NCBI RefSeq assembly: GCF_007004665.1 | Contig: NZ_ML660057.1 | Location: 124,001 to 188,000, forward strand | From: Denitrobaculum tricleocarpae | Lineage (GTDB): Bacteria; Pseudomonadota; Alphaproteobacteria; Kiloniellales; Kiloniellaceae | Direction: 5' to 3' | DNA: 64,000 bases | In this document: piece after piece, positions 8,723 to 44,229 of the stretch | Layout of the letters: every line of letters starts with the position of its first letter | How positions within the stretch are numbered: position 1 is the first letter of the stretch | Position numbers and translations under genes: made by a program | The notes under the pieces: model-generated | Seen by the model: only the letters and a program-made list of their open reading frames with translations | Database searches by the model: none | Told to the model about the DNA's origin: nothing

Positions 8723-9391
8723 TTACGCAGCGGCGGAATCTGACCGCGAGCGTGTGATATAGGCCTTCGCACAGTGCTCGGCACAATAGGGTTTGCCGGA
8801 CAATGCCGGTTCACCACAGAAATGGAAATCCGCATCCCCCGGATCGCCAATCGGCCAGAGGCACTTGGGCCCTCGCCGGCTTGCGTTCACCGCACGCGTG
8901 GCCGAAGCAACGCTGTCCCGAGATGTTCCGCGGGCCGCTTTCGCAACACTCGGTGCCTGGGCCGCTGACTGTGCGCCGCTTGCAGACTGTCCGTTGCGCA
9001 CCGCCGCAGCGGCCTTCGCAGCAACGGCGGAGCTTGCCTCGCTGTTGCCCGAACCCGCAGACTTCGCCGCAAGTGCTGCGGAGATGACCGTCTGAAGGGG
9101 TTCGTTTTTCGCAGCGCCCTTATCTGTGCCAGCCGTTGTGCTCGCAGGACGCGCCGCTCTGGCGCTTGCAGAGCTTTGCCTAGCCGCAGGCTTGGCGGAG
9201 GATGCGGAGTTCGAGGCTCCTCCGTCGTCACCGCGCTTGATCGGCGAGGGCCTCGCCTGCAGTTTCATCCGATGCGCTTTGCCGACAACTGCGTTCTTCG
9301 AAACACCTAGAAGCTTGCCAATCGCCGAAGCGCTTTGGCCCGATTCCCAGAGTCTCGTCAGTTCGTCGATTCGTTCTGGAGTCCAGCTCAT
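8723..9391 (-). CDS. gcrA: GcrA cell-cycle transcriptional regulator
   Basis: DNA-binding protein that, in Caulobacter, joins sigma-70 polymerase at promoters carrying CcrM-methylated GANTC sites and drives S-phase genes. Here 222 aa, longer than the roughly 170 aa of Caulobacter GcrA because of an Ala/Ser-rich linker (about residues 50-165). The N-terminal HTH (MSWTPERIDELTRLWESG, then SASAIGKLLGVSKNAVVGKAHR split over residues 1-45) and the C-terminal Cys/His cluster (CLWPIGDPG, FCGEP, YCAEHC) are both intact. A good Shine-Dalgarno (GAAGGTGG) precedes the ATG. Upstream DNA holds a DnaA box, GANTC sites and a CtrA half-site. A strong terminator follows. Confidence 0.96.
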   Translation of the reverse strand: MSWTPERIDELTRLWESGQSASAIGKLLGVSKNAVVGKAHRMKLQARPSPIKRGDDGGASNSASSAKPAARQSSASARAARPASTTAGTDKGAAKNEPLQTVISAALAAKSAGSGNSEASSAVAAKAAAAVRNGQSASGAQSAAQAPSVAKAARGTSRDSVASATRAVNASRRGPKCLWPIGDPGDADFHFCGEPALSGKPYCAEHCAKAYITRSRSDSAAA

Positions 9392-9512
9392 ATGCCCACC
9401 TTCACGTCAACAACAATATATAGCTACCCTGTCTAAATGTAGGGTTTTTATGGTTAAGCGCCACCATATAAGGTATGGTTTAGGGAGTCGAGTCTATGAA
9501 CCGCCTGGATTC
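9368..9512. promoter_or_regulatory. GANTC (CcrM) site cluster at gcrA promoter and start
   Basis: Five GANTC sites lie at 9368-9372, 9378-9382 (inside the first gcrA codons), 9485-9489, 9490-9494 and 9508-9512; the last three fall within 28 bp. GANTC is the substrate of the alphaproteobacterial cell-cycle methylase CcrM and the recognition core for GcrA itself, so the cluster fits methylation-dependent control or autoregulation of gcrA. Confidence 0.6.
9450..9457 (-). promoter_or_regulatory. CtrA half-site TTAACCAT in gcrA promoter
   Basis: The minus strand reads TTAACCAT, the CtrA half-site seen at several Caulobacter promoters, about 60 bp upstream of the gcrA start codon. CtrA represses gcrA in Caulobacter. 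An eight-base match alone is weak, but it sits with a DnaA box and GANTC sites in the same short region. Confidence 0.45.
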
Positions 9513-9515
9513 GAG

Positions 9516-9524
9516 TTATCCACA
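9516..9524 (+). promoter_or_regulatory. DnaA box upstream of gcrA
   Basis: The sequence TTATCCACA is a perfect match to the DnaA-box consensus TTATNCACA. It is 125 bp upstream of the gcrA start codon in the gap between gcrA and the divergent SAM-hydrolase gene. In Caulobacter, DnaA activates gcrA transcription, so a functional site here is likely. Confidence 0.7.
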
Positions 9525-9561
9525 ACTTTGTTTGTTTTGCGCCTGCGCAGGGTCGAAAGCG

Positions 9562-9586
9562 TTAACAGCGGTTAACAATTATTAAC
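9562..9586 (+). repeat. Three helically phased TTAAC repeats
   Basis: TTAAC occurs at 9562-9566, 9572-9576 and 9582-9586, exactly 10 bp apart, so all three face the same side of the helix. The spacing is N5 between TTAAC units (N6 between TTAA cores), not the N7 of the classical CtrA palindrome. They may be regulator half-sites for gcrA or the gene at 9672. Confidence 0.5.
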
Positions 9587-9671
9587 GATCACAAGGTTCC
9601 GTCATGGCGCCCCGGCAAGCAAAATCTTCCGACCAAATTGAACCGGCTATTCTCCGTTGAGGGTCACCGCG

Positions 9672-42948: not shown

Positions 42949-44229
42949 TCACGAACCGCCGATGTGTTTCGCCGCATAAGAGATGGCATCGACAGTCTGC
43001 GCAATATCGTCGTCGGTGAGCGCGAGCGAGGGATAGATCTTCCCGTCCGGTTTAAAGATTCCCTTCTCCCGGAGCTTCTGGTTAAAGCGCTTTCCGAGAC
43101 TGGCATCCCCGCGTAGGACGCCGCGGTAGCCGGTGACCCGGTCCGAGGCGAAAACCACATCGAAGAGCACCGGATCACCAACGATCTGGTGATCGACGCC
43201 TGCTGCCGAAAGGTGCTCCTCGAGGGCCTTCATGATGCTCACTCCGCGTGCCCGCAAACGCTCGTAGCTGCCGGAGCGGCGCAAAATCTCCATGGTTTTT
43301 AAGCCCGCCGCCGCCGCGACGGGATTGCCGCTCAGAGTGCCGATCTGCAGGGTAAACCCCGCTTCCCCGACTTTGGCTTTGTCGAAATGCGCCATCACCT
43401 CGGCCTTGCCGGCGATCGCCGCCAGCGGAAACCCGCCGCCGATGATCTTGCCCAGACTGCAAAGATCCGGCGTCACGCCGTAGAGCTCCTGCGCGCCGCC
43501 GTAGGCCAAGCGAAACCCCGTGACGACCTCGTCGAAGATCAGCAGAATACCGTGCTTTTCGGTTTCTACCCGCAACGCCTCCAGGAAGCCCGGTTCGGGC
43601 GGAATCAAGCGTTGCAGAGGTTCCGCAATAACGGCGGCAATTTCCCCGGCATGTTCCGCCAGCAGCTGCCGTATGAAATCGATATCGTTGAAGGGTGCGA
43701 TCAACATGTGGTCCCGCACAGAGTCCGGAATCCCCGCGGAATCGGGCACGGCCATGGGAAAGTTCGCCAGCCGGGTCGGCGCCAGACTCATCAGGGCCTC
43801 CGCCGACATGCCGTGATAACCGCCCTCGAACTTCACGATCTTATCGCGGCCTGTGTGCGCCCGCGCCAGACGCATGGCGTACATATCCGCCTCGCCGCCG
43901 GTGCTGACAAAGCGCACCTGATCGGCACAGGCCACCGCGTTGCAGATTTCCTCGGCCAGTTCGATCCCACGTGCATTGTTGGCAAAAAAGGTCATGCCCT
44001 TGGCGAGCTGCTCCTGCACCGCCTCCAGTACCTCCGGGTGACCGTGCCCCAACAGCATGGGGCCGGAACCGATCAGATAATCGATATACTCTTTGCCGTC
44101 CTCGTCCCAGACCCGCGAACCGCGCCCCTCGCGAATGACAATGCCCGGATCGAAATTGCCGAAGCCGCCGCCGGGCAGCACCTTTTCCGCACGGGCGATC
44201 CAGTCTTGCTGAGAAATATGGGCATCCAT
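42949..44229 (-). CDS. Class III aminotransferase (GSA-aminomutase-like)
   Basis: PLP enzyme of 426 aa. The fold-type I class III pattern is complete: GSGPMLLGHGHPEVLEA near the N-terminus, STGGEADMYAMRLARAHTG for cofactor phosphate, IFDEVVTGFR with D233, and the Schiff-base Lys K261 in SLGKIIGGGFPLA. ATG at 44229 has GGAG eight bases before it. It is the last gene of the five-gene minus unit starting with the demethylating flavoprotein, and could transaminate a keto or aldehyde product of that pathway. Glutamate-1-semialdehyde aminomutase itself is less likely in this context. Confidence 0.9.
   Translation of the reverse strand: MDAHISQQDWIARAEKVLPGGGFGNFDPGIVIREGRGSRVWDEDGKEYIDYLIGSGPMLLGHGHPEVLEAVQEQLAKGMTFFANNARGIELAEEICNAVACADQVRFVSTGGEADMYAMRLARAHTGRDKIVKFEGGYHGMSAEALMSLAPTRLANFPMAVPDSAGIPDSVRDHMLIAPFNDIDFIRQLLAEHAGEIAAVIAEPLQRLIPPEPGFLEALRVETEKHGILLIFDEVVTGFRLAYGGAQELYGVTPDLCSLGKIIGGGFPLAAIAGKAEVMAHFDKAKVGEAGFTLQIGTLSGNPVAAAAGLKTMEILRRSGSYERLRARGVSIMKALEEHLSAAGVDHQIVGDPVLFDVVFASDRVTGYRGVLRGDASLGKRFNQKLREKGIFKPDGKIYPSLALTDDDIAQTVDAISYAAKHIGGS

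Follow-up and report, generated by a model that had tools for sequence, protein, structure and literature searches.

Which signals are gathered in front of gcrA in this marine alphaproteobacterium, and do they include inputs beyond the regulators usually named for the gene? GcrA is described as controlled by DnaA and CtrA, and an earlier note on this DNA proposed that the master cell-cycle circuit is wired into one short region ahead of gcrA through a DnaA box, a cluster of GANTC sites, a CtrA half-site and a phased array of TTAAC copies. All of these sites are present at the positions given there, upstream of a real gcrA (PF07750). The earlier note overlooked, in our reading of the sequence, the most conserved element of the region, namely NrdR-like boxes between the -10 element and the start codon. 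We consider it probable that gcrA is served by a compact sigma70 promoter that combines a DnaA box, a -35 element set in a tandem CcrM site and an NrdR-type operator, a model in which the proteins and their effects are predicted from the sites, their conservation and their geometry.

The window, that is, the whole stretch of 64,000 nucleotides that was analysed (G000:C6:124001-188000), belongs to a 6.4-Mb genome whose closest named relatives are uncultured Kiloniellaceae and Pelagibius sp. Alg239-R121. This genome contains one copy of gcrA, and it encodes both CcrM (365 aa, a methyltransferase with a RAMA domain) and CtrA (425 bits, with a cut-off of 350). The GcrA of the window (8723-9391) has a long Ala/Ser-rich linker and scores 89.5 bits against the NCBI GcrA equivalog cut-off of 280, with both of its ends still matching Pfam GcrA. 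A gene of the SAM-hydroxide adenosyltransferase family (plus strand, from 9657 or 9672 onward) is divergent from gcrA; in one congener (G003, locus L003) this gene is not found beside gcrA, and a Vut_1-type transporter is next to it instead. The features of the region are the following:

8723-9391, minus strand: gcrA coding sequence, 222 aa, matching PF07750 (2.3e-28) over residues 1-217
9411-9426, minus strand: NrdR-like box 3 (TAGCTATATATTGTTG), 10.8 bits here and 11.1-12.4 bits in congeners
9430-9445, minus strand: NrdR-like box 2 (ACCCTACATTTAGACA), with degenerate arms and the core C4/AT/G13 kept, 5.1 bits only
9450-9457, minus strand: TTAACCAT, a possible CtrA half-site over the predicted transcription start at about 9455-9457, in three of four congeners
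9461-9476, minus strand: NrdR-like box 1 (ATACCTTATATGGTGG), over the -10 element, 11.6 bits with the gcrA-derived matrix, identical in four congeners
9463-9468, minus strand: predicted -10 element TATGGT, 17 bp from the -35 element, identical in four congeners
9485-9494, minus strand: tandem CcrM site GACTCGACTC, identical in four congeners
9486-9491, minus strand: predicted -35 element TCGACT, inside the tandem CcrM site
9508-9512, no strand assigned: GANTC site (GAATC) adjoining the DnaA box, kept in four congeners and not a regular feature outside the genus
9516-9524, plus strand: DnaA box TTATCCACA, inverted relative to gcrA, with its centre at about -65 from the predicted start, 9/9 bases identical in four congeners
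9562-9586, plus strand: three TTAAC copies with 10-bp spacing (starts at 9562, 9572 and 9582), in the window genome and its sister G002 only

The comparison covered the gcrA upstream region of the window and 134 others, of which 55 in total belong to the order and 80 to the remainder of the class, and expected motif counts in these regions were obtained from dinucleotide shuffles; genomes of the same genus are not independent, and counts of one genome per genus correct for relatedness only in part. When the genus is aligned, 122 of the 141 bp before the gcrA start codon are identical in all four congeneric species. This conserved block starts just ahead of the DnaA box and, beyond -141, identity drops to 30-53% in the two more distant congeners. 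Conservation among the four species bears out only some of the sites in the earlier note: the DnaA box, the GAATC next to it (5/5 bases) and the tandem GANTC (10/10) are identical throughout, but TTAACCAT is intact in three species and the TTAAC array is found in only two. As for the circuit as a whole, the predicted DnaA and CcrM/GcrA inputs to gcrA are well supported by the conservation of their sites across many genera, whereas the CtrA half-site is weakly supported.

The DnaA box was correctly placed and is kept in the genus, the order and the class, and the copy at 9516-9524 is the sole exact TTATCCACA in the 64-kb window. In gcrA upstream regions, TTNTCCACA is found in 24 of the 55 from the order (0.3 expected) and in 24 of the 80 from the rest of the class (0.8 expected), as compared to only 2 of 586 control windows flanking gcrA loci; its 98 occurrences in the 6.4 Mb of the genome correspond to about 0.4% per 250 bp. 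Most genera having a forward box show it starting 25-27 bp upstream of GANTC; the box of the window's genus has the opposite orientation and begins 30 bp upstream of it. Its predicted position near -60 to -65 would be that of a class-I activator. In Caulobacter, DnaA activates the gcrA promoter, which carries a single DnaA box (PMC3193534), and the mark of such a promoter, a conserved DnaA box near it, is found at this gcrA. DnaA bound to the single box here, some 60-65 bp ahead of the start, would activate the gene, as in Caulobacter (PMC3193534).

GANTC sites are located at 9368, 9379, 9485, 9490 and 9508, with two more at 9342 and 9350. The five that had been counted as part of the promoter region do exist at these coordinates, but those at 9368 and 9379 lie within the gcrA coding sequence and not upstream of it. 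The motif is depleted about two-fold in the window (158 found, 324 expected), as expected for a genome with CcrM, and the seven sites in 171 bp have a P of about 0.0007. Random placement would give 0.26 clusters of three GANTC within 28 bp in the window, which has two, and 22% of the simulations contain one or more such triples; with an equally tight cluster elsewhere in the window and this frequency among random placements, the significance of the triple alone was ruled out. The other three-GANTC cluster spans 23 bp, at 43721-43743.

Comparison across genomes gives the two central sites a more precise geometry than the earlier note described. The tandem GANTC GANTCGANTC is present in 17 of the 55 gcrA upstream regions of the order (0.2 expected) and in only 3 of the 80 outside it, and the composite GANTCGAC-N(18-20)-TATNGT occurs in 19 of the 55 as compared to 0.00 expected. 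A predicted sigma70 promoter of the form GACTCGAC-N18-TATNGT is shared by about a dozen genera. Among 13 genus representatives from six families, GACTCGAC is invariant and the spacer is only 36% identical on average, with a distance to TATNGT, or to a near variant of it, of 18 bp in 11 representatives and 19 bp in the other two; the N of GANTC, which was left free in the search, is always C. In terms of a sigma70 promoter, these representatives have TATNGT as the -10 element and, within the GANTC pair, either TCGACT or TCGACA as the -35 element. The composite matches the window genome only once, at gcrA. When 31 genomes were searched, 11 of 21 matches were gcrA and the other 10 equalled the reversed-pattern control (9) and, consequently, no further promoters of this type are claimed.

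A conserved GANTC in the core promoter, predicted from the sequence, is found here together with ccrM in the genome, as would be expected of a promoter subject to CcrM methylation. With the -35 element inside GACTCGACTC, its adenines would be methylated, and the strength of the promoter would depend on fork passage. In Agrobacterium, GANTC methylation weakens the gcrA promoter, an effect also seen in E. coli (PMC11514494); here, too, full methylation is more likely to repress, with activity lowered until the fork passes. A -35 element built from GANTC would make it easy to see, in physical terms, how methylation could affect gcrA with no additional protein, as the behaviour of the Agrobacterium promoter in E. 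coli illustrates. In the Pelagibius litoralis group the promoter is kept with TGGACA instead, without GANTC, so methylation control of gcrA would be a variable trait. Upstream of ccrM itself (locus L094, G000:C1 at about 572 kb), four GANTC are found in 36 bp directly before the start, which suggests methylation feedback on ccrM.

If methylated, the -35 region may also be read by GcrA. Autoregulation, in which GcrA would bind its own methylated tandem GANTC and activate or repress its own promoter, with methylation acting through GcrA instead of directly on sigma70, is a possible reading that we consider rather doubtful, and it could coexist with inputs from NrdR and DnaA. On the opposite strand, the invariant GACTCGAC agrees with YGAKTCK, the motif preferred by GcrA (motif from PMC7987155), and the last position of this motif also fits, as read by eye, in 12 of the 13 genus representatives; in Caulobacter, two GANTC sites stand side by side in the mipZ promoter, which GcrA activates (PMC3667746). 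By contrast, methylation affects the gcrA promoter of Agrobacterium even in E. coli, where GcrA is absent (PMC11514494), and we found no report of such autoregulation in the openly licensed literature. As the DnaA box and the NrdR-like boxes are left unexplained by it, GcrA autoregulation can only be an additional layer.

The CtrA input is less clear. The half-site does lie on the minus strand at 9457-9450, but it is lost in one of the four congeners, being altered in Pelagibius sp. Alg239-R121, and it is not an order-wide feature. In addition, no TTAA-N7-TTAA site was found at the gcrA core promoter. In Caulobacter, half-sites over the core promoter repress and CtrA accepts a TTAA-N6-TTAA spacing (PMC4287350); repression of gcrA by CtrA through TTAACCAT is possible, on a site that is not firmly conserved. 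The TTAAC array, with its three copies exactly 10 bp apart, was described correctly, but it is confined to the window genome and one sister and lies outside the block conserved in the genus. It is unique in each of these two genomes, and TTAA-N6-TTAA-N6-TTAA occurs once in the 6.4 Mb of the window genome; among the first 50 or so TTAA pairs listed for this genome, N7 is the commonest spacing (about 13) and N6 the next (about 9). Upstream of ctrA (locus L258, G000:C13:38869), two inverted TTAACCAT flank a run of TTAA with 9-10-bp spacing (TTAACGGTCTTAATCTTGATTAATCTTAACC), which is probably a CtrA autoregulatory site and lends some weight to the array being CtrA-related. As a variant CtrA site, the phased array would be a weak lead, and as a general one it was ruled out, since it is not a feature of the lineage. 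Elsewhere in the genome, two DnaA boxes and a CtrA N7 site at G000:C1:249 kb were considered as a possible origin, and the open reading frames there, presumably a small heat-shock-like protein and a metallophosphatase-like protein as named by eye, gave no support.

The NrdR-like boxes emerged from an expectation-maximisation motif search in 109 gcrA upstream regions (one per genus in the order, together with those of the rest of the class). The palindromic search returned nCACaAtATaTtGTGn (CACAATATATTGTG), with a site in about 82% of the regions and a log-likelihood of 334, as compared to 73-83 for shuffled controls, which produced unrelated AT motifs; the same palindrome was recovered when the palindrome constraint was removed. 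This consensus equals the NrdR box, which we take to be ACACWATATATWGTGT. Published NrdR sites are 16-bp palindromes with conserved G-C pairs, 15-16 bp apart (PMC12051234, PMC9110341, PMC12176259), a separation that amounts to three helical turns centre to centre (PMC12051234, PMC9110341). Although the gcrA-derived matrix contained no spacing information in its training, pairs of sites with at least 8 bits are most frequent at 31 bp (45 pairs), with secondary peaks at 50 bp (30) and 19 bp (21). Of 51 pairs in the order, counted with one genome per genus, 17 have the 31-bp spacing, as do 15 of 57 pairs in the class. When a matrix was trained on other orders exclusively, it detected sites in 29 of 29 genera of the window's order, at the same spacings, and sites with at least 10 bits are present in 16 of 34 gcrA upstream regions from named records versus 4 of 718 flanking windows. 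Weak boxes or none at all are seen in most Kiloniella genomes, in Caenispirillum and Rhodothalassium, in most Kordiimonas and in the Sphingomonadales examined; thus, this wiring of gcrA is not universal. The nrdR start motif had no match in the collected loci that were scanned.

In the window, the centres of boxes 1 and 2 are exactly 31 bp apart; that of box 3 follows after another 19 bp, at a distance of 50 bp from box 1. All three positions are kept in the four congeners, and 19 of the 21 columns of the block surrounding box 2 are identical in the genus. Box 1 reaches 9.7 bits with the matrix trained only on other orders (third in the 64-kb window), a score that could come in part from the promoter itself, as the box overlaps the -10 element; box 3 reaches 10.9 bits with the class-trained matrix and is the best site in the window. 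The strong pair, boxes 1 and 3, lies 50 bp apart, off the optimum, and the 31-bp partner, box 2, is degenerate. Still, the properties of an NrdR operator are recognisable here: the boxes keep C4, the central AT and G13 of the 16-bp palindrome, a centre-to-centre distance of about 31 bp is the commonest spacing in this and in other orders, and box 1 covers the predicted -10 element, as expected of boxes over the RNA polymerase site or the start. Finally, the same boxes are present at a ribonucleotide reductase (RNR) gene of this genome. The region upstream of nrdA (locus L280), used as a positive control, contains just two sites with at least 8 bits by the gcrA-derived matrix, ACGCAACATGTTGTGT and CTACCAACTATGGTAT, with 15.8 and 8.0 bits and 31 bp apart; scanning the ctrA and ccrM upstream regions with this matrix revealed no NrdR-like sites. 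Near the nrdA start (L280:1190-1278, G000:C1 at about 1042.7 kb) there are also two exact DnaA boxes about 80 bp apart, so nrdA and gcrA would share both inputs.

From these observations, we find it fairly likely that gcrA is a direct NrdR target across much of the Alphaproteobacteria, forming one regulon with ribonucleotide reductase. The operator would consist of three boxes, a 31-bp pair with a third 19 bp further, covering the -10 element, the start and the leader. By analogy with RNR promoters, NrdR carrying dATP plus ATP would occupy this operator and silence gcrA whenever DNA precursors accumulate and, thus, gcrA would be expressed together with the DNA-synthesis genes.

Two other accounts of the boxes have to be weighed. 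One of them, which we deem improbable, retains a circuit of the Caulobacter type only, where DnaA activates, CtrA represses and GcrA/CcrM act at GANTC, and regards the ATAT palindromes as -10 elements of tandem promoters. It agrees with the conservation of the DnaA box and GANTC, with the position of TTAACCAT over the predicted start and its presence flanking the genome's own ctrA, and with the fact that box 1 contains the -10 element. However, -10 elements leave unexplained the 16-bp palindrome and its C and G arms, the 31-bp pair spacing across orders and the pair at nrdA, and one congener no longer has the CtrA half-site. The other, a regulator different from NrdR that by coincidence has the same site and pair spacing, is conceivable in that the identity of the protein is deduced from DNA, but it is very unlikely, because the consensus, the positions of the G-C pairs, the 15-bp spacer and the pair shared with nrdA all match NrdR.

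Given that the literature calls NrdR RNR-specific (PMC9110341), gcrA would be, on the best reading of its upstream sequences, a new target class for this regulator; we found no link between NrdR and GcrA in the openly licensed literature. The conserved boxes suggest that, in many related bacteria, the cell-cycle clock is coupled to the supply of DNA precursors. An NrdR-type operator on gcrA would join the level of DNA precursors to the master cell-cycle circuit of a large class of bacteria and, if this is true, the nucleotide state would gate the GcrA/CcrM epigenetic circuit. This would be one way for alphaproteobacteria to adjust the expression of S-phase genes to the nucleotides available.

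The proposed promoter resembles several known systems and differs from each of them. With the gcrA promoter of Caulobacter crescentus, by its published description, it shares a single DnaA box (DnaA-activated in Caulobacter, PMC3193534), whereas NrdR-like boxes and a GANTC -35 element are not described there in the openly licensed literature. As in the gcrA promoter of Agrobacterium tumefaciens (PG), a GANTC cluster is located upstream of gcrA, and in Agrobacterium methylation lowers activity (PMC11514494); set against the published description of PG, the GANTC sites here form a tandem pair exactly at -35. Caulobacter ctrA P1 also has a core-promoter GANTC that couples it to fork passage, together with a CtrA half-site near the start (PMC4287350), but it has one GANTC at -29, while here a tandem GANTC replaces the -35 element. 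Finally, the NrdR-regulated RNR promoters of E. coli, Streptomyces and Listeria have 16-bp palindromes of the same consensus, a 15-bp spacer within the pair, and boxes that overlap the RNA polymerase site and the start. In contrast to those promoters, the putative target here is a cell-cycle sigma70 cofactor rather than RNR, a third box is often found 19 bp further, and box 2 is degenerate in the window's genus.
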